Below, piece after piece: positions 12,197 through 31,211 of a stretch of 64,000 nucleotides of DNA. The position numbers and the translations under genes are program-made. Positions within the stretch are counted from its first letter, which is position 1. Each line of letters opens with the position of its first letter. The stretch is from Thermalbibacter longus. Its GTDB lineage: Bacteria; Chloroflexota; Chloroflexia; Thermomicrobiales; Thermomicrobiaceae. The stretch spans positions 1 through 64,000 of the forward strand of contig NZ_JAMSLR010000002.1 of assembly GCF_023806485.1 (NCBI RefSeq), written 5' to 3'. The notes below the pieces were generated by a model. It saw nothing but the letters and a program-made list of their open reading frames with translations, searched no databases and was not told the origin of the DNA.

Positions 12197-13981
12197 ATGC
12201 AGGCGCACACGAGGTGGCGTGATCCAGAGACCGAGCGTGTCGTGCTCGACGCGATCGATATCGAGGAGCCCTGGGCGCTGCTCGAGCGCTTCAATACCCT
12301 GGTCCGGCTCTCTGGTAGTCAGGATGAGGCCGAAGCCGTCGCCTATCTCACCGGCCGACTCGATGCCTGGGGGGTGCCCTATCGTGTCCATCACCCGGTC
12401 TGCCTGATCAGCATCCCGGTGCGAGCCACGCTCCGCGTGGTGAGCCCGAGCCCGCGTCCTATCCGGGCCAAGACGCTCTCCTTCTCCCCCTCCACCGACG
12501 GCGCTGAGATCACCGGCGAGCTGGTCTACGTCCCCTCCGCGCACGCCCGGGGTGTAGCCGAACTGCTCGGCGCTGCTCGGCCGCAGATCGAGCAGGACCT
12601 GCGCGGCAAGGTCGTCCTCACCGAGGGGCTGGGACTGGCCGCCCGCGGCCTCGATCTGGCGAAGACCGGCGCGATCGGCGCCATCTTCATCAACCCAGGC
12701 GACTACATCCACGAGGGGATCGCGACCACCTCCTGGGGCTCGCCCGACCTCGACTCGCTCGGCCGGGTACCCCCGGTGCCCATCCTGGCCATCAGCCGGC
12801 CCGACGGCGAGTCGCTCAAGGCCGAGCTCGCGCGCGGGTCAGTGCAGGTGGCCTTCTCGACCACGGTCGATACCGGCTGGCGGCCGATCCCGGTGGTGGT
12901 CGCCGAGATCCCGGGCACCCAGGCAGCCGATGAGTTCGTGCTCTTCCACGGTCACCTCGACTCCTGGCACGTCGGCATCGGCGACAACGCGACCGGAGAC
13001 GCCACACTGCTCGAGATCGCCCGCGTCTTCTGGCAGCACCGCGACCGGTTGCGCCGCACGCTGCGCATCGCCTGGTGGTCGGGGCACTCGCACGGGCGCT
13101 ATGCCGGCTCGACCTGGTATGCCGACACCTTTGCCCAGGACCTGATGCCTAACTGCATCGCGCACGTCAACTGCGACTCTCCCGGCTGCCGCTGGGCGAC
13201 CGAGTATCGCGACGTAGCCTGGATGGCCGAGGCGGGCGAACTGGTGCGCGCAACCATCCGCGACGTGACTGGCCAGGAGGCGACCGGTTCCCGGCCACTG
13301 CGCGCGGGCGACTGTTCCTTCAACAACTTGGGCCTCACGACCTACTTCATGCTCTCCTCGACCATGCCCGAAGCGTTGATCCGGGAAAAGGGCTACTACC
13401 CGGTCGGCGGTTGTGGTGGCAACATCCAGTGGCATACCGAGGACGATACCCTCGAGATCGCCGATCGCGACAACCTACTGCGCGACATGCGCGTCTACGC
13501 CGCGGTGCTGCTGCGCACGCTCAACGCGCCGGTGCATCCGTTCGACTACCGGGCTACCGTGCGCGAGATCGAGGGCTATCTCCAGCGCTACCAGGAGGCG
13601 GCCGGTGACGCGTTCGACTTCCGGCCCGCGCTCCAGGCGGCCGGCAACCTGCTGACCACCCTCGACCGCTTCTATGAGCTCGTCGAGAGCCTGCTCGACC
13701 GCGAGGTCGACGACCCCGAGGTGCGCCGGGTGAACGCGGCCCAGCGCGCGCTGGCCCGGCACCTGGTGCCGCTGGGCTATGTACGGGCCGGACGGTTCCG
13801 CCACGACCCGGCGCAGCAGATCCCGCCGCTCCCGGAGATCGCGCCGGCTACTGAGCTGGGGCAGGTTCCGGCGGGCAGCGATCGCTGGCACACCCTGCGC
13901 ACGCATCTGGCGCGCGGGCAGAACTACGTCGTCTGGAGCCTGCGCCAAGCGCACCGGCGCATCGCCGAGATCCTGCCCTAG
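12197..13981 (+). CDS. M28-family peptidase-like protein with altered catalytic Glu-Glu motif
   Basis: The start at ATG 12197 follows GGAGGGAGCG; the GTG at 12155 does not. The 594-residue protein has an N-terminal part, a PA-like insert (about residues 90-215), an M28 core, and a helical C-terminal region (from about 465). The M28 metal ligands His253 and Asp255 (Gly-His-Leu-Asp), an Asp in VNCDSPG and His413 in WHTEDDT are present. Where active aminopeptidases have Gly-Glu-Glu-x-Gly-Leu-x-Gly-Ser, this protein has Gly296-His297-Ser298-His299-Gly and then Ala-Gly-Ser. The general-base Glu and a metal-binding Glu are therefore replaced by Ser and His. It may bind metal differently, hydrolyse another bond, or be a non-peptidase. 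No signal peptide is seen. Confidence 0.8.
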   Translation: MQAHTRWRDPETERVVLDAIDIEEPWALLERFNTLVRLSGSQDEAEAVAYLTGRLDAWGVPYRVHHPVCLISIPVRATLRVVSPSPRPIRAKTLSFSPSTDGAEITGELVYVPSAHARGVAELLGAARPQIEQDLRGKVVLTEGLGLAARGLDLAKTGAIGAIFINPGDYIHEGIATTSWGSPDLDSLGRVPPVPILAISRPDGESLKAELARGSVQVAFSTTVDTGWRPIPVVVAEIPGTQAADEFVLFHGHLDSWHVGIGDNATGDATLLEIARVFWQHRDRLRRTLRIAWWSGHSHGRYAGSTWYADTFAQDLMPNCIAHVNCDSPGCRWATEYRDVAWMAEAGELVRATIRDVTGQEATGSRPLRAGDCSFNNLGLTTYFMLSSTMPEALIREKGYYPVGGCGGNIQWHTEDDTLEIADRDNLLRDMRVYAAVLLRTLNAPVHPFDYRATVREIEGYLQRYQEAAGDAFDFRPALQAAGNLLTTLDRFYELVESLLDREVDDPEVRRVNAAQRALARHLVPLGYVRAGRFRHDPAQQIPPLPEIAPATELGQVPAGSDRWHTLRTHLARGQNYVVWSLRQAHRRIAEILP

Positions 13982-20130: not shown

Positions 20131-20886
20131 ATGCCTGAGCTAGCCGGGCGGATTGCGATCGTGACCGGCGCGGGGTCGGGGATCGGGCGGGCGATCGCGC
20201 ACCGCTTCGCCGGGGCTGGCGCGGCCGTCGTCGCCGCCGACCTGAACCTCGCCGCAGCGGAGGAGACCGCGACCAAGTTCTCCGAGCAGATCGTGCCGCA
20301 TCAGGTCGACGTCACAGACGAGCCCAGCGTCCAGCGGCTCGTGCAGGCGACGCTGGAGCGCTTCGGGCAGATCGACATCCTCGTCAACAACGCGGGGATC
20401 GGCACGACGAAGGACATCGTCGAGACCGACCTGGAGGAGTGGGAGCGCGTCTTCGCGGTCAACGTGCGCGGGGTCTTCCTCTGCTGCAAGCACGCGCTCC
20501 CCAGCATGCTGGCGCGCCGGCACGGCGTCATCGTCAACATGGGCTCGGTGGCTGGACTCATCGGACTTCCCCAGCGGGCCGCCTACTGTGCGAGCAAGGG
20601 AGCGGTCGTTACCCTGACCAAGCAGATCGCCGTGGCCTACGTCAAGCAGGGCATCCGCTGCAACTGCATCTGCCCGGGAACCGTGGACACGCCCTGGGTG
20701 GAGCGACTCGTTGCCCAAGTGCCCGACCCGGAGGCCGCCCGGCGCGCCCTCGAAGCCCGCCAGCCGATGGGCCGGCTGGTCCTGCCGGAGGAGGTGGCCG
20801 CTGCCGCGCTCTACCTGGCCTCCGACGATGCCGCCGCCATCACCGGCTCGATCCTGGTCATCGACGGCGGATGGATGGCCCAGTGA
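20131..20886 (+). CDS. Short-chain dehydrogenase/reductase
   Basis: The 251-residue classical SDR has the NAD(P) loop Thr-Gly-Ala-Gly-Ser-Gly-Ile-Gly near residue 13, Asn-Asn-Ala-Gly at about 87, the catalytic Ser in MGSVAGLIG and Tyr-x-x-x-Lys in YCASK. Asp at the end of the second strand (VVAADLN) favours NAD over NADP. The C-terminus VIDGGWMAQ is typical. ATG 20131 is preceded by AAGGGAGG. Likely a 3-oxoacyl-ACP reductase-like or sugar/alcohol dehydrogenase; the substrate cannot be read. Monocistronic. Confidence 0.85.
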   Translation: MPELAGRIAIVTGAGSGIGRAIAHRFAGAGAAVVAADLNLAAAEETATKFSEQIVPHQVDVTDEPSVQRLVQATLERFGQIDILVNNAGIGTTKDIVETDLEEWERVFAVNVRGVFLCCKHALPSMLARRHGVIVNMGSVAGLIGLPQRAAYCASKGAVVTLTKQIAVAYVKQGIRCNCICPGTVDTPWVERLVAQVPDPEAARRALEARQPMGRLVLPEEVAAAALYLASDDAAAITGSILVIDGGWMAQ

Positions 20887-21034
20887 GCTGGAGTGAGCGC
20901 GCCAGGAGCACTGTGCCTCGTTTCGCTGGCAGGGGCCATACTGTGTCCTCCCTCGGTGCGCCGCGGGAACAGTGTCCCCGGGCACCACAGATCCGAGGAT
21001 GTCACGCGGAGCGACCTGGAGGAGAAACAGCCTC

Positions 21035-21062
21035 GGCCCGGCGGGAAGACGCCCGCCGGGCC
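21035..21062 (-). terminator. Probable ancestral nrdJ terminator
   Basis: An 11-bp perfect stem (GGCCCGGCGGG at 21035-21045 with 21052-21062), 6-nt loop, is followed on the minus strand by GAGGCTGTTTCTCC. It lies 28 bases beyond the repeat copy of the nrdJ 3' end (21091-21120), which is where the terminator of an uninterrupted nrdJ would sit. It can also serve the converging SDR gene. Confidence 0.6.
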
Positions 21063-21090
21063 GGCCGGTTCACAGGCGTTCCGGCTACGA

Positions 21091-21120
21091 GCAGCCGAGG
21101 CTGTTGCCGCAGTTGAGGCA
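21091..21120. repeat. 30-bp direct repeat, island end (att-like), copy of nrdJ 3' end
   Basis: This 30-bp sequence is identical and in the same orientation at 26712-26741. Read on the minus strand it encodes [10 protein letters not shown], and the flanking bases TCG TAG add Ser and stop, so it reproduces the end of NrdJ. Upstream bases on the minus strand (island side) bear no likeness to nrdJ, so only this end is duplicated. Confidence 0.85.
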
Positions 21121-21742
21121 ACTGAGACGTGCTGCGGATGGCGTCGCTTAGGGTATCTGATAGGCCCCTTCGTACGCGGGATTCGCTTCCCCAGGTGCTG
21201 CCGGTTTCTGCTTGTGTCCGCATGCGATTGCGGTCAGGATTGCGGTCAGCGTGCCACGTTAGGCGGACGGGCATGCCGTCGTCTTCTGCGTTCGCGAGCC
21301 CGGGCGCCTTGGCGGCGGTCGTCGGCTGGCGGGTGCAAGAGAAGGCGCGTGCCTGGAAGATCCTCATGTCGCTGAACTGACCGTCAGGCCGCGAGCGAGT
21401 GCGAGGCTGGCCCCGGACAGCCCAGGGCCAGCCTCGTATACCGTTTCGATGGGCTCGCGCTGTCAAGCAGAATCTGCGACCATCCGAAAGGATTATCAGG
21501 ATGCAGAGCGACCGCAGCACGATTGGGAGCCTGTCGTGCCATCCCGTGGGGCAGGCTCTTGAGCTAGACGACGGCAGGGCCATTGCGGAGATCGAGGGGA
21601 TTATGGCGAACCGGAACGCGGGCGCATTTCTCAAGGGGTGTGTTGTCGGTGCCGGTATATCGATGATGGCGTTCGTATCGATTGCTGTAGCCGCCCTGTG
21701 GTGTACCAGAGTGCCGGTTCGATCTGACTTCATTGGCTCTCG
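21121..21742. other. Decayed island end without an intact gene
   Basis: No frame here resembles a known family. The best candidate is a short frame from ATG 21603, after GAGGGGA, coding for a basic start and one hydrophobic helix (LKGCVVGAGISMMAFVSIAV), but its continuation to 21821 runs through the B12-binding relic in the wrong frame, so it is probably a truncated fragment. Confidence 0.3.
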
Positions 21743-22113
21743 ATGGCGGCTTGCGTGGAGGGAGAGCTGCACGAGCTGGGCTGTACATGGCGGCGTGCCT
21801 AGTCGAATCGTTTGGTTATGAGCTGCACTACCTTGGTGCGAACACGCCCGTAGCCGACGTCGTGAACACCGTCTGACGCTGGCGGCCAGCGCTCGTGCTG
21901 TTGGCCGCGGTCTATCCGAAGCATGTGCCAGCAAAGGGGGCGGACAGCGCGTGCGTTGGACGCCTTGCCAGATGCGGTGCGGCCGCGGTGGGTGATGCTG
22001 GGGGCAAGGCCGCGCTAGAGCGGCGAGCGTGGTTGGCCCACATGCCGGTGATTCCCCTCGATCACCGGCCGCACAGCGTGGAGGAGTTGCAAGGGTTACT
22101 TCGCGGTAAGTAA
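21743..22113 (+). pseudogene. Relic of a cobalamin (B12)-binding domain, likely a MerR-type regulator end
   Basis: From ATG 21743 the frame gives VEGELHELG, which is the start of a MerR-associated B12-binding domain. A one-base loss then shifts the frame; from 21787 it continues MAACLVESFGYELHYLGANT-PVADVV, the usual helix and Leu-Gly-Ala-Asn-Thr-Pro loop. A TGA at 21874-21876 interrupts it, after which RWRPALVLLAAVYP and a degraded tail run to the TAA at 22111-22113. The order of segments is that of the intact family; two lesions make it a pseudogene. It converges with and overlaps the GNAT gene by 18 bases. Confidence 0.65.
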
Positions 22114-22635
22114 GGATGAGGGCGCCGTGATTCCCAAAAGCATTACGTCATACCACTGTCCATTTTTCCATACTGCTTCCTTCTTAACCCCTTCTCTTGT
22201 GAAGCCAACCTTCTCAAGGCAATGAATCGCAGCCACGTTACCGGATAGCACCAAGGCTTCGATACGATGAAGGCCAAGATCCGAGAACGCATATTCTATT
22301 ATTATTCTGGACACCTCTTGGCCAATTCCCCGTCCCCGCATTTGACGATCCCCTATTATTAGACCGTACTGAGCAGAACGATTCTTCCAGTCAATGCCTT
22401 GGAGGATAGCTTCACCAATAGGTGAGATAGAATCGAGTGGAACTATTGCAAACATCCGTATTCGAGGATCAGCGCGGGCGGCAACAATTTGCTCTTCAAT
22501 CTCCTCAACAGTCAGTGGCCGCGGGTCACCGAAGACAGCCCATTGCGCTACGTCTTCATCAAGCAACCACTCCCGTACTTTTGACGCCATGTGTCGTTCC
22601 ATTGGGAGAAGCATTAGACGCTGGCTTTTAAGCAT
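22096..22635 (-). CDS. GNAT N-acetyltransferase (RimJ/RimL-like)
   Basis: The 179-residue protein has the acetyl-CoA loop Arg-Gly-x-Gly-Ile-Gly (QMRGRGIGQEV, about residues 98-108) and the following AFSDLGLHRIEALVLSGNVAAIHCLEKVGF helix-strand pattern with Asn-x-x-x-Ile-x-x-x-Glu-Lys-x-Gly-Phe. This is the ribosomal-protein/peptide acetyltransferase branch. The gene starts three bases after the MFS stop and is the last of the radical SAM - MFS - GNAT operon, so acetylation of a peptide product or resistance is plausible. It is markedly AT-rich compared with the genome. Confidence 0.85.
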   Translation of the reverse strand: MLKSQRLMLLPMERHMASKVREWLLDEDVAQWAVFGDPRPLTVEEIEEQIVAARADPRIRMFAIVPLDSISPIGEAILQGIDWKNRSAQYGLIIGDRQMRGRGIGQEVSRIIIEYAFSDLGLHRIEALVLSGNVAAIHCLEKVGFTREGVKKEAVWKNGQWYDVMLLGITAPSSLLTAK

Positions 22636-22638
22636 TCT

Positions 22639-23871
22639 CTATGCCCTTCTAAGCGTTCTTGAGCACAGCGCAATGATCCCGAGCATCGTCATCACAGATC
22701 CCATTCCGGCAATGCTCGCCTTAGGACCAAAAGATTCGGCAAGTCCACCACCCAAGAGTATGCCGATAGGTCTAATAACAAAGGTAAGCGACTGACGGAG
22801 GGCTGTGACCCGACCAAGCAGAGTAATTGGCACGTCGCGTTGATACAGTGTTCGTGCAAAGATTGTTGTGGCAATCGTCCCTGCACCTGCCAAAAAGGAT
22901 CCGAATAAAGCGCTAGCGAACACTGGAGAAAAACCGAATAGGACATTGCCTAGCCCAAGCAGTATGATGCTAATCCCCAGCAGCGAGCCTACACGCCGGC
23001 TTCTTCCGAATACTGACAGTAGTCCACTCATTGTAAGGACGCCAACGGCAAATGCTGATGAAGAAAGCCCCGCTGCGGCTGAGCCAAGTGCGAAGTCTTG
23101 CTTCACTGCAAGAGGCACGAGAAAGCCAAGGGGGGCAAGTGTCAGGCTGACCACTGCTGTCAGAAATGTTAGCACGAGTAGATGCGGGGTATGTCCAAGG
23201 AACACCAGAGCTTCTTTGAGGCTATGGTGGGCTCTAGTACCCCGAGTCTCAACATTTGCTACCTCAATGCACAGGAGCGACAACAGGAGTACACCAAACG
23301 TTATGGCATTGACCCAAAAGAGCAATCCGATTGCCTGTGCCGCAATATAGCCGGCAAAGGCAGGTGAGAGAATACCAACTACGGCACGGATCGTTTCAAG
23401 CCTGCCATTCGCCCGGGAAAGACCATCCGGTGATACGAGCTCCCTCAGCAGGACTTGCTGCAAGAGCAGGTATGGCTGGTCGAGGGAGGCGACAGCAAAG
23501 GCAATGGCGTAGAGAGCCACAAGAGAGACTCGATCAAGCAACATCGCGCTACCACTTATTAGAACGATAAGTATATACACAATGACAGTGGTGATCATGA
23601 GCTTCTTATGATTGAGTATATCAACCAATATGCCTGCGCACGGAGCAGTGATAGCACTGGTTACTGCCATGATGAGTGAAACAAACGATACCGCCACAGC
23701 TGAATCTGTATAGGTCACAGCCCACCAAGTTAGAGCAAAAGGGAGAAGTTGATCGCCAAAGTAGGAAATCCCTTGCCCGATCCAAAATGCTCGAAGACCC
23801 CGGGAGGATCCGGAGTCTTCATTCAAATCACCGTGATTAAGTTTCGGTGGTGCGTCCGAACGAGAGCACAT
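22639..23871 (-). CDS. MFS exporter (12-helix, MFS_3-like) in the island operon
   Basis: The protein is up to 410 residues with 12 hydrophobic segments. It begins with a FWIGQGISYFGDQLLPFALTW helix typical of the MFS_3/enterobactin-exporter group, has PCAGILVDILNHKKLM as the motif A loop, and a long cytoplasmic loop near residue 210. ATG 23871 has no good ribosome site; a TTG further in (before AsnGluAsp, about residue 16) is an alternative start. It lies 35 bases after the radical SAM gene and three bases before GNAT, implying cotranscription. An exporter for the product of the radical SAM protein is the simplest reading. Confidence 0.8.
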   Translation of the reverse strand: MCSRSDAPPKLNHGDLNEDSGSSRGLRAFWIGQGISYFGDQLLPFALTWWAVTYTDSAVAVSFVSLIMAVTSAITAPCAGILVDILNHKKLMITTVIVYILIVLISGSAMLLDRVSLVALYAIAFAVASLDQPYLLLQQVLLRELVSPDGLSRANGRLETIRAVVGILSPAFAGYIAAQAIGLLFWVNAITFGVLLLSLLCIEVANVETRGTRAHHSLKEALVFLGHTPHLLVLTFLTAVVSLTLAPLGFLVPLAVKQDFALGSAAAGLSSSAFAVGVLTMSGLLSVFGRSRRVGSLLGISIILLGLGNVLFGFSPVFASALFGSFLAGAGTIATTIFARTLYQRDVPITLLGRVTALRQSLTFVIRPIGILLGGGLAESFGPKASIAGMGSVMTMLGIIALCSRTLRRA

Positions 23872-23906
23872 AGGCTGCCAATGAATATCCCAATCCGTTC
23901 AGTAGG

Positions 23907-25343
23907 CTACAGGCGAGATAATGTTGGTATCACTTCGGTTCTAACAAGCGCTCCTGGGATCTCGCGAATATCGATGCCCCTAAAGGGATTAGAGGGGGAT
24001 GCCAGCGATCGGAGCTCCTGCAATTGCTCTGATCCTTCCCAGATCTGCTGCAGCGAAGTAGTGGTCACATGGCCAACAGTATGAAACCTCGGACACCAAT
24101 GACGAAGCTTGGCTGAGACGTAGACAGCTCCGGTTGGATCAATCCGAAGAGTCCGATCCGCCTTATTGGTTATGTACACTTGATCGCGAACAGGGTTCGA
24201 GGCAGGAACCACATCAATTAGCTTGTGCCAAAGCGCATCTGCCGGCATGACCAGCCCAATTCTAACTGCCTCGACGAACTGTCGGACAGCGCAATCCCAT
24301 TCATCCGGAGAGAGCACTAGATGCCATAGGCGTGACCCTCTTCCGACCGGATACATTGGACCAACATAGTACTGCCCGTCAAACTGGCTAACAAGCTCAG
24401 CTATTTCCCTAACCGTATTAAAATTTCCCTTGTGAACAGTTGTGCCCACACCAATCGGTATCCCCAAAGAGCTAAGCAATCCAAGCTGCTTTACGGTGAT
24501 CTGCCAAGCCCCTCGTCCTCGCGATGCGTCGGCCACCTCGGGTGTTGCACCGTCTAGGCTGGTTTGAATCGCCGCTAAATGCTGTATTGCTTGCAGTCTC
24601 TCAAGATCTGTTGTCTTCAAGATACTTAAATCCGAGTTAATATACATTATGATACGCTTCTTGTCCGCATATGTCAGGATCTCCCATATATCATTCCTTG
24701 CAAAAGGATCTCCGCCTGTTAACTCCACAGCAATAACACCATTTCGCTCTATCTCGTCAAACACGGTAAACCATTGCTCCGTCGATAACTCCACCTGACA
24801 AGGGATTTTGGGATTCGGACCAGACTCGTACGCGCAGTATATACAGTTCCGGTAACATTTGTTCGTTATCTCGAGTTCCAGACCAAAGGGGGATTGATAA
24901 ACCATATTGGGATCCACTGATACTCTCATTGAGTAGATAGTGGCATTTGACTTTTGCTGTGACTCAGTAGCCGGCACTAAAACACCAACAGCGAAAAGTT
25001 CTTGCAGAAACGCTCCAAGATCACCGGGGGTTATTGCTATCCCATCGTGTTGGATTTCAGTGGATAGTCGAACAAGAGTTTTTGGATAGACAAGCCTTTC
25101 AAGAATTGTTGTAGCTTCAGCGGTGAGGAAGTAGACTAACGTCCGATATTGGACGATTCCGAAAGATCTCTCTCGCCGAAGGCGAACATCGTCGCTAAGC
25201 AAAACAGGCGTATCTGTGCTAAACTGATTGGCTCTTCGCGACAAGAAAAGCTTATTCCTGTTAGGTGGTGCTGGGGTTAGTGTATCCCATCCAGCTCTAA
25301 GCCAAAGGTGATCATCGGTCACATCCCACCATCGCTTGACCAT
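23907..25343 (-). CDS. Radical SAM protein with RRE/PqqD-like N-terminus and reduced SPASM-like tail
   Basis: The 478-residue protein starts at ATG 25343 after AAGGGGGGTCT; an upstream ATG at 25385 lies inside the promoter -10 box. Residues about 45-125 form a PqqD/RRE-like winged helix (hydrophobic LTAEATTILERLVYPKTLVRL, then ITPGDLGAFLQELFAVGVL). The 4Fe-4S motif is CxxxCxxC: Cys163, Cys167, Cys170 in CYRNCIYC. Gly-Gly-Asp-Pro (ELTGGDPFARNDI) is the SAM-binding motif. The C-terminal part has RIDPTGAVYVSAKLRHWCPRF and GHVTTTSLQQIWE, the SPASM outline, but only one Cys, so auxiliary clusters are probably absent. Such proteins modify ribosomally made peptides. No precursor gene was found nearby. 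Confidence 0.85.
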   Translation of the reverse strand: MVKRWWDVTDDHLWLRAGWDTLTPAPPNRNKLFLSRRANQFSTDTPVLLSDDVRLRRERSFGIVQYRTLVYFLTAEATTILERLVYPKTLVRLSTEIQHDGIAITPGDLGAFLQELFAVGVLVPATESQQKSNATIYSMRVSVDPNMVYQSPFGLELEITNKCYRNCIYCAYESGPNPKIPCQVELSTEQWFTVFDEIERNGVIAVELTGGDPFARNDIWEILTYADKKRIIMYINSDLSILKTTDLERLQAIQHLAAIQTSLDGATPEVADASRGRGAWQITVKQLGLLSSLGIPIGVGTTVHKGNFNTVREIAELVSQFDGQYYVGPMYPVGRGSRLWHLVLSPDEWDCAVRQFVEAVRIGLVMPADALWHKLIDVVPASNPVRDQVYITNKADRTLRIDPTGAVYVSAKLRHWCPRFHTVGHVTTTSLQQIWEGSEQLQELRSLASPSNPFRGIDIREIPGALVRTEVIPTLSRL

Positions 25344-25383
25344 AGACCCCCCTTGCCTTTTATCGGTTCCTTGGGCCAATGTC

Positions 25384-25412
25384 ATTCTACAACGTTGTGG
25401 TTAGTCTGTCAA
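25384..25412 (-). promoter_or_regulatory. Consensus sigma-70-type promoter for the radical SAM operon
   Basis: On the minus strand TTGACA (25412-25407), a 17-base spacer and TAGAAT (25389-25384) match the housekeeping consensus in all but one position. Transcription would begin near 25377, giving a leader of about 34 bases to the ATG at 25343. Confidence 0.75.
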
Positions 25413-25573
25413 CCCCTATGGCGGGCAGCGTAACGGCGAAGGAGAATCGCCCTAGCATCGACGCTATGGCTGGTGATCGGTCACATGGATCCTGACCTGG
25501 CCCAGTGAGGCGGGGAGCCAAGGGGCAGGCGCCTAAGCGTCCGGATCCCATCCGATGAAGAACCCCACCAGTG

Positions 25574-26225
25574 CTATCCCGCTTGGTTGACCATCTCCTC
25601 GACCTGACCGCGCAGGCGCTCCGATGGTACCGGCGAGAAGACCGTCGGGGCGTCGTGCCACGGGCTTTCCGGCTCCGCCATCCCGTCCGGAGTGAGGACA
25701 AACCGCCAGGGATGCAGCCTGCCCGCATGGTACTGCGGATCCCAGGACAGAGGGGCGAGGAACAGAAGGTACGTCTGCCCAGCCTCCATCGGGATGTGCG
25801 GAAAGGTCTCACGCGCCTGCTGTATGGTCTGCTCGCTGACCGGCATCCGGTTCACATTGATGAACCCCTCGCTCTGCACCACGTGCAGAATGTCACCTCC
25901 GGTGCCTGAGGTAGCGCTCGACGGCAACATCGTAGACCTGGCCGAGAATGAAGGTTTCTGGGTCAGGTTCACGCGGGTTGCCCGGCTTCCTGGCCATGTT
26001 GACGATCTCCCCGGGACCGATGACCCGGCCGACGACGATCACCGGCGACTGGGCGATGAGCTCGTCCAGCGTGCGCGCGGTCATGTAGCTGGCCTGCGCT
26101 GCCCCCTGTTCTCCACCGGTGGGTGACGGTCCAGTACGCTGTGCCGTGCAGCTCGTAAGGGCGGCAAGCCCTACGAGCACGAGGGATAATACTGACAGGC
26201 GGATGAAGGCCCTCTGGGAAACCAC
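25574..26225 (-). pseudogene. Frameshifted lipoprotein gene
   Basis: The first frame starts at GTG 26225 after AGGAAGGAGATCCAG and encodes a lipoprotein signal with lipobox Leu-Thr-Ser-Cys, then a soluble domain with VIVVGRVIGPGEIV and VYDVAVERYL. It stops at 25893. The adjoining frame carries the evident continuation GDILHVVQSEGFINVNRMP to LSWDPQYHAGRLHPW and stops at 25574. The switch needs a one-base change near 25905-25925 around a CAGGCACCGGAGGTG segment. Either the gene is broken or there is a base-call error. The start lies 23 bases after the protease relic, suggesting one operon. No name can be given to the family. Confidence 0.6.
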
Positions 26226-26247
26226 CTGGATCTCCTTCCTCAGTATA

Positions 26248-26631
26248 CTACCAGTATACCTGGTTAACAAGATCAATATCTAGTTGTTGCGGTGTATAGT
26301 AGATTTCTGAATCTGGATTATTACCAAGCAGAGCAATACCCGAATCGGCAATATGGCCAAGACTCCATCCGTGCCCTAGCTCATGACCAGTTACTGACCT
26401 TCGATGATTTGAAGAGTAGCCATAGAGTGCATCGTAGTAGGTATTACCCATGACGTCGTACGCAGTGGTCGTTGTGCCGCTGCAGTATGGGACAGCGAAT
26501 CCAGCAAGGCCGTCATTCTCGCCCCAATAGGTATTGATGTGTACATCGCCGTAGCTGTCGAAGTAGTAGAATAGACAAGTAGGCGTATTATTCCAATCTT
26601 GCAGAGACTGCTCAAATATTGTGGTCAAACA
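26248..26631 (-). pseudogene. C-terminal fragment of a metzincin-type zinc metalloprotease
   Basis: The frame ending at 26248 encodes a short domain with the metzincin zinc motif HExxHxxxxxH (HELGHGWSLGH, bases 26353-26385), preceded by strands DVHINTYWGENDGLAGFAVPY. The upstream part is missing: the frame enters the terminator hairpin at 26634 and the island end with no start codon or signal peptide. A full-length secreted relative would have a signal peptide and a helix-rich N-terminal half. It appears cut by the insertion event that formed the island junction. Confidence 0.65.
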
Positions 26632-26633
26632 CG

Positions 26634-26662
26634 AGCCCGGTGCCGCAGTCGGGCACCGGGCT
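26634..26662. terminator. Terminator after nrdJ supplied by the island
   Basis: An 11-bp perfect stem (26634-26644 with 26652-26662) and 7-nt loop are flanked by CAAACACG on one side and CGTTTG on the other, so T-rich tails follow in both directions. It lies 44 bases beyond the nrdJ stop, within the island. Confidence 0.75.
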
Positions 26663-26705
26663 TCGTTTGTGCTCCGCGTCTCGAGGGCGGGGTTCGATCT
26701 CCCGA

Positions 26706-29700
26706 TCAACTGCAGCCGAGGCTGTTGCCGCAGTTGAGGCACTTGTAGCACGAACCGTTGCGCACCGTGATGTGGCCGCAGACATCGCAGAACGGCGCGT
26801 CGCCCATGAGCTGCGAGAGCTGCTCGCTCAGCGCGTCGGCTGGGCGTGGCCCGCGCTGGCCGGCGGCCTGGGTCGGCCCCTGGACCACGGTGACCAGCTC
26901 CTCGGCCTCCTGGCGCTGGCCGTTCTGGTAGTGCGCGCCGTTCTGCGGCGAACCGGCGGCTGGTGGCTTGGTCTCGCCTGCGCGCTGCTCCGGCGCCGGG
27001 GCTACGCTCCCGCCACGCGGCGGTACCTCGTCGGCATCGCCGCCGTGGATCGGTGGCTGCACCTGCACGAAGTCGGTGCGGCCCAGGTACTCGTAGCCCA
27101 GCACGCGGAAGATGTAGTCCACGATCGAGGTCGCCATCTTGATGTACGGGTGCCCCTCGACCAGCCCCTGCGGCTCGAAGCGCTGGAAGGTGAAGGTGTC
27201 GACGAACTCCTCCAGCGGCACGCCGTACTGCAAGCCCTTGGAGATGGCGATCGCGAAGCAGTTCATCAGGCTGCGGAAGGCGGCGCCCTCCTTGTGCATG
27301 TCGACGAAGATCTCGCCCAGCGTGCCGTCCTCGTACTCGCCGGTCCGCAGGTAGATCTTGTGGCCGGCTACCCGCCCCTCGTAGGTGATGCCGCGTCGCT
27401 TCGGCGGCAGCGGCCGTCGCCGCGGGCGCTCGACGATCACGACCTGCTTCTCCGGCTGGGCCTCCGGCTCCTTCTCTTCGGCCTTCTTCTCGGCCCGTGT
27501 CGAGAGCGGCTGCGAGAGCTTGGAGCCGTCGCGGTAGATCGCCAACGCCTTCAGCCCGAGTCGCCAGGACTCCAGGTAGGCGTCGGCCACGTCCTGCACC
27601 GTCACCTCGTTCGGCATGTTGATGGTCTTGGAGATGGCGCCGGACAGGAACGGCTGCACGGCCGCCATCATCCGGATGTGGCCGAGGTGATGGATGAAGC
27701 GCGTGCCGTGCTTGCCGCACTTGTTGGCGCAGTCGAACACCGGCAGGTGCTCGGGCTTCAGGTGCGGCGTTCCCTCGACGGTCTGCCGGCCGCAGATCAC
27801 ATCGTTGGCCTCCTCGATCTGCTGCCGGGTGAAGCCCAGCTCGCGCAGCAGGTCGAAGTCCGGCCGCGTCCACTGCTCCGGCGCGAACCCCAATCGCCGC
27901 ATCGTCTCCTCGCCCAGCGTCCAGGGGCTGAAGGCGAAAGAGAGCTCGAAGACCGACGGCAGCGCCTGCTCGATCCGGGTCAGATCGTTATCGGTGAATC
28001 CGCGCTGGCGCAGCGACTCGCGGTTGATGTGCGGCGCGCCCTCGAGCGAGAGGGTGCCGAGCACGTAGCGGAGGATGTCCTCGATCTGCTCCGGCGAGTA
28101 GCCCAGGCGCCGCAGCGCCGGGGCGATCGAGCGGTTGGCGATCTTGAAGTAGCCGCCACCGGCCAGCTTCTTGAACTTGACCAGCGCGAAGTCCGGCTCG
28201 ACGCCGGTGGTGTCGCAGTCCATCAGCAGGCCGATGGTCCCGGTCGGCGCCAGCAGCGTGACCTGGGCGTTGCGGTAGCCGTGGCGCTCGCCGAGCTCGA
28301 GCGCGCGATCCCAGGCCTGCCGGGCGGCCTGCACCAGGTACGGCGGGCAGTGCGCCGGGTTCAAACCGACCGGCGGGGTGTGCAGCCCTTCGTACTCGGC
28401 CGGGTGGGCGTTGTAGGCGGCCCGGCGATGGTTGCGGATCACTCGCAGCATGTGCTCGCGGTTGGGCGCGAAGCCGGGGAAGGGGCCCAGCGCCTCGGCC
28501 ATCTCGGCTGAGGTGGCGTAGGCCTCCCCGGTCATGATGGCGGTGATGGCGGCGGCGATCGCCCGGGCCTCGTCGGAGTCGTAGGGCAGGCCCATGGTCA
28601 TCAGGAGCGAGCCCAAGTTGGCGTAGCCGAGCCCCAGGGTGCGGAACTCGTAGCTCTTCCAGGCGATGGCGTCGCTGGGGTACTGGGCCATCAGCACGCT
28701 GATCTCGAGCACAACCGTCCAGAGCCGGACGGCGTGCCGGAAGGTCTCGACGTTGAAGACGCCCGTCTCCGGGTCGTAGAACTTCATGAGATTCAGGGAA
28801 GCCAAATTGCAGGCAGTGTCATCGAGGAACATATACTCAGAACACTGCGCAATATAAACCCCGTTGGCCCAGACTGCATGATCATGTGGCTCGGTCAGAT
28901 TGTAGGTCAGCTCCTCGCCGTCCTCTTCGACCCGTACGACGTGCACCGGCCGGTCGGCCGCCTTGCTCATTCGCCGGCTGCCCAGAAGGCTCCGAAGCCG
29001 CTCCTGCTTGTAGCGGACAGAAAACCCAATATCAGTGCTGAAGCGCTCGAGATCCTGGGGATGTACCCGGAGACGATAGCAGGCTCGAGAGGTATATCCC
29101 CCAAACCCTTCCTTCTCGGCACCGCGCATCTCACCAATCGAGGAACGAATGCCGAAGAGCTGGAGGAGGAGCTGGATGTCTTCGAGCAACCCTCTGGCCG
29201 CACTCGCTGCGGAAACCTCGCACTCTCCCATTTCACCGCGACCGTAGCATGTACCGTCAGCGCCGAAGTAGCCGCGCAGAAAAGCGGCAACGATCTCCTT
29301 CGGTGCCGTGAAGAGAGAATTAGGCACTCGCTTATCGTGCGCGCGCGCTGTCTTGACTCCAAGGGCGGCGAAGAAGCGACCAACTGCTCGTCGGGAGATA
29401 CGGAGTTGCCGGCAGCCGTTCCCAACACGCGTATCACTCACCGCAATGCCGAAGAGCGTCTCAAGCCATCGCTTATGTCGTTCGGCCGTCTCCTCCCGCT
29501 CATCTTCATGCGTGCCGTAGACCAGTACGGTGACGCCGGTCGAGTCGATGCAGCCATCGCCGATTAGGTGGCCGAGAATCTCGGCCAACTCGGGTGACCA
29601 TCGCGTGGGCATGGCCGGAAGGCTTCGCTCGCCCAACTGGCGGTCAATGCGGATCGGGAGCTCCCAGATGCCCTCGTACTCAACGGGAAAGTCATGAATG

Positions 29701-31211
29701 AGCACCTCGTCGCCGTCGACCAGCTCCGCAGCGGGCTTACGGGTTCCATCGCGAAGGATCCACGTATGATTTGGCGTTGTACGGAGTCTTCGCCCATCTG
29801 ATAGGGTTACCTTGAGAATCGGATTGACGCCGGTCAACATAAGCTGGCTGGGACGTGACGGGCTACCATCACGCCGCAAGACGCGGATGAAGCGCCCCTC
29901 GATCCCTTCACCGACGAGCTCGTCGATGCGCATCAACCCGTGTTCGGTCAGAATGCGCGTATCGCCCGTGAAGCACGGGTTGGAGGCATTGATGCGGCCA
30001 GAGGCCGGGCAGGTGTGCCAGTCGTTGATCGTCGTGTCGAACTGGATGCCCGGGTCGGCGCACTGCCAGGCCGCCTCGGCGATCAGGTCCCACAGGTAAC
30101 GGGCCTTGACTGTCTTGGAGACGCGGCCATCGGTGCGCCAGCGCAGGTGCCAGTCCCCGTCGTTGAGCACGGCCTGGATGAACTCGTCGGTGACCCGCAC
30201 CGAGTTGTTGGAGTTCTGGCCGGAGACCGTGGCGTAGGCCTCGCCGTTGAAGTCGGCCGGGTAGCCAGCGGCGATCAGCGCCGCGACCTTCTTCTCCTCC
30301 TCGGCCTTCCAGCGGATGAACTTCTCGATGTCCGGGTGGTCGATATCGACCACGACCATCTTAGCTGCCCGGCGCGTGGTGCCGCCGCTCTTAATGGCGC
30401 CGGCCGCCCGGTCGAAGACCTTCAGGAAGCTCATCAAGCCGGAGGAGGTGCCGCCGCCGGAGAGCGGCTCGCCCTCAGCCCGGATCTTGGAGAAGTTGGT
30501 GCCGGAGCCGGAGCCGTACTTGAAGACGCGCGCCTCGCGCATCACCAGGTCGAAGATTCCGCCGGGGTTGACCAGGTCGTCCTCGACCGACTGGATGAAG
30601 CAGGCGTGCGGGGTGGGGCGGGAGTAGGCGTCGGTGGACTTCTTCAGCTCGCCAGTGTCGGGGTCGACGTAGGCGTGGCCCTGGGCGGGGCCGGTGATGC
30701 CGTAGGCCCAGTACAGCCCGGTGTTGAACCACTGGGGCGAGTTGGGCGCGGCCATCTGGTGGAGGAGCATGTAGGTCAGTTCGTCCTCGAACGCCTGGGC
30801 GTCCTCCGGCGTGGCGAAGTAGCCGTAGCGCTCGCCCCAGTCGCGCCAGCAGCCCACCAGCCGCCGGACGACCTGGCGCACGCTGCGCTCGGGGCCGAGC
30901 ACCGGCTGCCCGTGCTCGTCGAGGATCGAGTTGCCCTGCTCGTCGTACTGCGGGACGCCGGCCTTGCGGAAGTACTTCGAGACGACGATATCGGTCGCGA
31001 CCTGTGACCAGGGCTCGGGCACCTCGGCGTCGGTCATCTCGAAGACGACCGAGCCGTCCGGGTTGGTGATCCGGGAGGTGCGCCGCGTCCAGGGGATCGT
31101 CTCGTAGGGGTTCTGACCCGCCCGGGTGAACACCCGGGCGATCCGGAGCCCTCCCGGCCGTCTGGCGGTGCTGGCTGTCTCACTCTTGGTCGCCTTGGCT
31201 CGCTGCGCCAT
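26706..31211 (-). CDS. nrdJ: Adenosylcobalamin-dependent (class II) ribonucleoside-diphosphate reductase, intein-containing
   Basis: The precursor has 1501 residues, of which 413-789 are an intein, so the mature enzyme is about 1124 residues. It converts ribonucleotides to deoxyribonucleotides with a B12-generated thiyl radical. Visible RNR signatures: ATP-cone-free N-terminus, [27 protein letters not shown], the [24 protein letters not shown] active-site block that is split by the intein, and [22 protein letters not shown]. The C-terminus is a zinc ribbon with CDVCG and [14 protein letters not shown] 31211 follows GGGGGA. NrdR-like boxes lie upstream. The last ten codons form the island attachment repeat and the final Ser-stop is supplied by the island. 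Confidence 0.95.
26712..26741. repeat. 30-bp direct repeat, island end inside nrdJ
   Basis: Identical to 21091-21120 and same orientation. It covers codons for [10 protein letters not shown] of NrdJ. The bases beyond it are AGT TGA here and TCG TAG at the other copy; both encode Ser then stop. Confidence 0.85.
28845..29975 (-). other. Intein in NrdJ with LAGLIDADG homing endonuclease domain and C-terminal Gln
   Basis: The 377-residue intein interrupts the RNR block between Pro412 and Cys790. It begins Cys-Phe-Thr-Gly-Asp-Thr (block A), has Thr67-Pro-Asn-His70 (block B), [12 protein letters not shown] near residues 130-141 and [13 protein letters not shown] near 229-241 (both endonuclease motifs with Asp retained), block [16 protein letters not shown], and ends VYIAQ. 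The last residue is Gln rather than Asn and the penultimate is Ala rather than His; the next residue is Cys. Gln-terminated inteins are known but rare. Base composition is less GC-rich than the flanking nrdJ sequence, indicating separate origin. Confidence 0.9.

Follow-up and report, generated by a model that had tools for sequence, protein, structure and literature searches.

Introduction

Excerpts of PMC4383910 (Islander) and PMC8409611 (SGI1, at the 3′ end of trmE) describe gene-restoring islands that supply a replacement for the gene end which they displace, the displaced end marking the island boundary; islands of this type carry an integrase and target tRNA, tmRNA or trmE genes. The islands at dusA, according to extracts of PMC4482086, likewise use a conserved protein-coding gene as a repeated address, but they enter it at the 5′ end and have integrases of a known family. 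Cis-mobilizable elements (CIMEs) are characterized in passages of PMC5704250 as elements that have lost their integration and transfer genes and have retained the attachment sites attL and attR. Here we analyse a stretch of 64,000 nucleotides from Thermalbibacter longus (Chloroflexota; this whole stretch is called the window), in which an island lies at the 3′ end of nrdJ, the gene for a class II (B12-dependent) ribonucleotide reductase. Like the gene-restoring islands it leaves a displaced gene end and supplies a new one, and like a CIME it holds cargo between two att-like repeats; unlike the former it targets nrdJ and has no integrase that we could find. We put the probability at roughly 0.7 that the island arose by site-specific integration at the nrdJ 3′ end through a tyrosine-type recombinase that was lost or acted in trans, leaving a CIME-like cargo island.

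The nrdJ gene serves the making of DNA precursors, and the cysteine-containing C-terminal tail of NrdJ is thought to be necessary for turnover, so that an island landing at nrdJ must rebuild the gene end exactly. Reductase genes have been associated with mobile DNA in other ways, namely by an intein in Azotobacter nrdJ that is absent in a related genome (extract of PMC4465626) and by an integrative and conjugative element (ICE) in which nrdB is cargo, not target (extract of PMC3826726). As an integration site nrdJ is not described in the excerpted parts of PMC2864759, PMC4428469, PMC4465626 and PMC3653736, and we found no report of an island at nrdJ in the open-licence PubMed Central literature. 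The island is of a known kind, a new member at nrdJ, and its address was not found in print.

Results

The 30-mer inside nrdJ (26712-26741) and a displaced 30-mer (21091-21120) are identical base for base, and on the minus strand both correspond to the last ten sense codons of nrdJ ahead of a serine codon and a stop. The nrdJ-side copy continues into AGT TGA, the displaced copy into TCG TAG (Table 1). Self-alignment of positions 20801-27000 limited the similarity to exactly 30 bp, ending sharply at both edges, in agreement with the first-pass annotation of this DNA, which had marked these 30-mers as encoding the last residues of NrdJ. The chance expectation for such a repeat pair in a random 64-kb sequence of the same composition is ~4e-8, and a degenerate 30-mer pattern that tolerated at most two mismatches hit only these two sites in the window's whole genome. 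No longer nrdJ frame runs into the displaced copy: ten codons upstream of it there is an in-frame stop. That a partial duplication of nrdJ with extended similarity produced the pair is hardly credible: nothing in the window favours it, the similarity does not reach beyond the 30 bp at either edge, and empty sites exist in relatives; a 260-nt repeat in G899, a relative of a Bacteroidetes genome (below), would suit such an event there.

Both nrdJ ends encode GC-S-stop and are followed by a hairpin. The target gene is restored by AGT TGA and the island's own hairpin, while the old end, TCG TAG with its hairpin, is displaced; the end of the NrdJ protein is unchanged because the island brings a new Ser-stop. 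The structure beside the displaced end had been called a terminator. Its 11-bp hairpin stood up, being conserved in two relatives, but it is not a typical terminator: a consensus scan made no terminator call at 21035-21062, and no T-run was seen adjoining.

Two genomes of the same genus (G002 and G003), with nrdJ 95 and 96% identical over 705 queried residues, carry empty sites. In each, nrdJ contains the 30-mer once, a single base differing in G002, and continues without interruption to TCG TAG and the conserved hairpin. This comparison with island-free relatives had been proposed in the first pass, and it upholds the assignment of AGT TGA to the island and of TCG TAG to the ancestral gene; the outcomes that the first pass had named as contrary, similarity past 30 bp or island-free relatives departing from a single copy, were not seen. 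At the level of the class, the 30-mer pattern is present in 38 of 158 genomes, twice in the window's genome only and once in each of the other 37. When the island DNA was compared with 101 genomes, its own included (threshold E 0.001; no more than two candidates scored in each genome), the matches beyond the island itself covered 32 query bases in its own genome and 36 and 48 in two relatives.

These relatives also bear on an assembly chimera as the source of the junctions, which we regard as very improbable: the host genome (3.63 Mb, with the window on contig C12) is in 80 contigs, but the flanks of the island belong together, since nrdJ, the hairpin and a short-chain dehydrogenase/reductase (SDR) gene share order and orientation between the window and G003, and a single contig of G002 carries both the block downstream of nrdJ and the SDR block.

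Further variation was seen around nrdJ in relatives. About 7.4 kb lie between nrdJ neighbours in G002 (L072, G002:C16:49548-56989) and are absent from G003, making a second variable stretch downstream of nrdJ. The nrdJ contigs of G001 (L074, G001:C146:1) and G009 (L075, G009:C74:1) stop where the 30-mer stops or just 2 bases further on, and look as if the assembly had branched there, perhaps because of mixed populations.

In the rebuilt nrdJ junction, inverted arms (CAACTGC / GCAGTTG) flank the middle of the 30-mer. With a spacer of 8 bp they pair at 9 of 11 positions; 1.8% of shuffled sequences did as well. The AGT TGA of the island completes the second arm, and the empty site reconstructed from the window flanks pairs at no more than 7 of 11 arm positions. 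As a putative crossover site, the arms fit a tyrosine-recombinase core.

The tyrosine integrase model PF00589 had zero matches on contig C12, consistent with the earlier statement that no integrase is present. Elsewhere in the genome six PF00589-type matches were found, of which three recur across the family, as judged by position and score, and three do not; two of the family-wide ones are probably Xer-like. Their presence on other contigs favours a variant of our explanation, possible but clearly the less probable form of it, in which a cargo island without an integrase from the outset was mobilised in trans, its nrdJ-end attachment site being recognised by an enzyme encoded elsewhere. However, 14-mers of both island junctions were not found around any of the six matches, and two of the three that are not family-wide adjoin tRNA genes (one tRNA-Phe; one, a fragment, tRNA-Leu). 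Moreover, the decayed-looking pieces in the island suit loss of the recombinase by deletion.

Integrase remnants were also sought in six-frame translations of the window and of four Bacteroidetes-type loci, with a local hidden Markov model (HMM) built from integrase open reading frames (ORFs) of the window's own family. No match in the window scored below E 0.18; both positive controls came from the training set, in which two of eight sequences (L067, L071) were frames of the wrong strand, so the PF00589 search is the main evidence on integrases. In viral contigs, neither of two forms of the 30-mer pattern had a match. Three viral contigs that match the NrdJ C-terminus were considered as phage attachment sites and rejected: each match ends a long open frame (903, 903 and 1069 codons) and is therefore read as a phage-encoded reductase. 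Within L080 (1476-2115), ~4.7 kb from the tRNA-Phe-linked integrase of the window's genome, there are four to five imperfect repeats of 45-80 nt that share GGTATA.

Displaced nrdJ ends were sought more widely with a pattern of the nrdJ end lacking an A at position -2, in one genome per species (84,980 species; contigs of at least 3 kb, a set in which the window's own genome may be missing). Of the 14 stretches returned, 13 are ordinary nrdJ genes, with Arg preceding the core, and one is a displaced end in a Bacteroidetes genome (G158). Here the nrdJ end (L123 8340-8371) and the displaced end (12689-12720) are identical at 29 of 32 positions, and the whole repeat spans 40 nt at 87.5% identity. 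The 4.3-kb insert encodes an MmeI-type restriction-modification protein, a weak HATPase match and a DUF4325 STAS-like protein, with no integrase among its genes. With so little room left for an integrase, this insert suits mobilisation in trans, but further relatives of G158 have genes of these kinds downstream of nrdJ and no displaced end. A DUF3800-VIII RNA (L123 8574-8640) lies between nrdJ and the MmeI-type gene; a stretch 91% identical to it occurs in the insert of the relative G899, and in eight related loci no match to the RNA reached the threshold. No arms comparable to those of the window junction were seen in G158 by eye. The shared upstream start of the repeat in the window and in G158 was discarded as evidence, because the search pattern (no A at -2, whole core) partly forces it.

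Among the loci of eight G158 relatives with a readable nrdJ end, only that of G899 has a second nrdJ-end copy. Its displaced end lies 1.96 kb from the nrdJ end, and the insert includes the final portion of the STAS gene seen in G158, so the two cases are not independent. Of 395 genomes of G158's phylum 14 match the pattern, G158 alone twice; each of 30 nrdJ-relative loci, that of G158 included, holds one copy within at most 1.5 kb beside the gene. In the L191/L192 set, G932 has HATPase and STAS homologues and G907 an MmeI homologue downstream of nrdJ, in neither case with a displaced end that we could find. The region after nrdJ in these relatives may therefore be a spot of gene turnover.

The G158 and G899 repeats bear on entry without any recombinase, whereby a circle or fragment with short homology to the nrdJ 3′ end would have joined through RecA or end-joining at the 30-bp match. 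The G899 repeat of 260 nt at 89% identity, which spans the nrdJ end and downstream sequence, and the 40-nt repeat of G158 lend themselves to this, as does the finding of no recombinase in the island; homologous recombination may have acted in these two genomes, given their longer repeats. For the window, we judge such entry unlikely, since its repeat has just 30 bp and sharp edges, and since the placement of the repeat rebuilds gene end and stop, which is the usual signature of gene-end integrases and unlike random homology.

The island body has a GC content of 54.3%, compared with 69.2% in the left and 66.2% in the right flank. It had been described as a low-GC island, which holds for the cargo operon (22096-25385) and the protease piece (26248-26711), both at 49.8%, but not for the whole: positions 21121-22095 have 63.9% and 25386-26247 have 63.1%. 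The GNAT, MFS and radical SAM frames of the operon look intact. The best NCBIfam match of the radical SAM protein is a mycofactocin maturase, below the cut-off of that model, and among 400 genomes of the phylum, its own included, the best match in any other genome covers 202 residues at 38% identity. A radical SAM protein of the Thermus thermophilus plasmid pTTJL1802 is 40.7% identical to it over 427 aligned positions and directly followed by an MFS gene; however, the MFS proteins are unmatched (blastp 1e-2), and the next Thermus gene (177 aa) is unlike GNAT. The operon may function in peptide modification and export. Around it lie pieces that look decayed: one frame that, read by eye, may be of the B12-binding type, a lipoprotein-like pair of frames read by eye, and a metalloprotease piece whose frame has no evident start ahead of the right junction. 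No known RNA reached the gathering threshold in the window, and none E 1 in 20900-26900.

The nrdJ product scores above cut-off for NCBIfam NF005122 and slightly below it for NF005736. Its intein is missing from nrdJ of G001, G002, G004, G005 and G009, while the match in G003 covers it; together with the island, one gene therefore hosts two mobile-type insertions.

Table 1. Coordinates of the nrdJ gene, the repeat pair and the island features in the window.
Feature	Position	Strand	Basis or remark
nrdJ, class II (B12-dependent) ribonucleotide reductase; target gene, with intein	26706-31211	-	Pfam PF02867, PF08471, TSCPD, LAGLIDADG_3
nrdJ intein	28845-29972	-	LAGLIDADG_3 match; alignment breaks
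30-bp repeat, nrdJ copy (att-like junction, nrdJ side)	26712-26741	-	followed by island-supplied AGT TGA at 26706-26711
30-bp repeat, displaced copy (att-like junction, far side)	21091-21120	-	followed by host TCG TAG at 21085-21090
Native hairpin after nrdJ, 11-bp perfect stem	21035-21062	-	aligns with both empty sites (G002, G003)
Island-supplied hairpin, 12 pairs, downstream of restored nrdJ end	26633-26663	-	terminator scan reported + strand; stem valid on either strand
Island body, 5591 bp, 54.3% GC	21121-26711		composition and comparison with relatives
Possible remnant of a B12-binding-type protein gene	21780-22113	+	translation read by eye; without Pfam support
GNAT acetyltransferase	22096-22635	-	PF13302, E 2.4e-19
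MFS transporter	22639-23871	-	PF07690, E 5.1e-21
Radical SAM enzyme, peptide-maturase-like	23907-25385	-	PF04055, E 5.6e-17; weak SPASM below cut-off
Two overlapping frames, like one frameshifted lipoprotein-like gene	25574-26276	-	by eye; without family match
Matrixin-like metalloprotease piece, HELGH motif	26248-26709	-	PF00413, E 0.061, below cut-off; weak collagenase matches from E 0.024

Discussion

The reading of the first pass, site-specific integration at a gene 3′ end, is supported by the empty sites, and a recombinase would be the maker of the junctions. We favour it because the 30-bp repeat is exact and sharp, because two relatives have empty sites and 37 other genomes a single copy, because the island is without longer matches in relatives and its cargo operon differs in composition, and because of the GC-S-stop and hairpin at both ends, the junction arms and the displaced ends in a Bacteroidetes genome and a relative of it. 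In the proposed course of events, a circular DNA with a copy of the nrdJ 3′ end would have recombined inside the last 30 sense bases of the chromosomal gene, most likely by way of a tyrosine-type site-specific recombinase. The incoming end, AGT TGA with its own hairpin, would thereby have been joined to nrdJ, so that the reductase keeps its Cys-containing tail, and the original end, TCG TAG with its hairpin, would have moved 5.6 kb away. The recombinase gene may since have been lost, or may never have been in the island and have acted in trans; what remains would be a CIME-like cargo island, the GNAT-MFS-radical SAM operon amid decayed-looking pieces. We infer the recombinase type, the circular intermediate, loss or trans action of the enzyme, and any present mobility.

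Several observations weigh against site-specific integration. The stretch from hairpin to SDR gene is ~3.5 kb shorter in the window's genome than in G003, so the locus has been rearranged apart from the insertion. The island ORFs tested against Pfam, NCBIfam and PHROGs contain no recombinase, relaxase or conjugation family, serine recombinases being unsearched genome-wide. No integrase match shares a contig with nrdJ at a distance of 100 kb or less in any of 19 family genomes, which is a partial test: nrdJ was found in 19 of 21 genomes (none in G007, weaker reductase matches only in G020), and in G001, G009, G013, G015 and G017 a contig end falls within the gene or at most 0.3 kb from it. No cognate enzyme is therefore known. 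The inverted arms give a modest signal, one chosen after the fact, and the long repeat of G899 is more like a homologous duplication.

Measured against CIMEs, the island has a candidate pair of attachment sites in its att-like 30-bp direct repeat with two empty-site relatives, and integrase and transfer genes were not found in it, with serine recombinases tested through the island ORFs only. Descent from an ICE or an integrative and mobilizable element (IME) would agree with the decayed-looking pieces; the search within 100 kb of nrdJ gave no integrase to go with it. The island differs in its target, a reductase gene, and in having no known ICE or IME counterpart with its specificity here.

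The ends of nrdJ are hit more than once, though rarely. It is doubtful, although conceivable, that the 3′ ends of class II reductase genes form a recurrent, cross-phylum site for recombinase-free cargo islands moved in trans, each rebuilding the C-terminus. If conserved between Chloroflexota and Bacteroidetes, an nrdJ end would offer an address with a broad host range. Displaced gene ends are, moreover, a search tag for integrase-less islands, which island finders anchored on integrases would miss.

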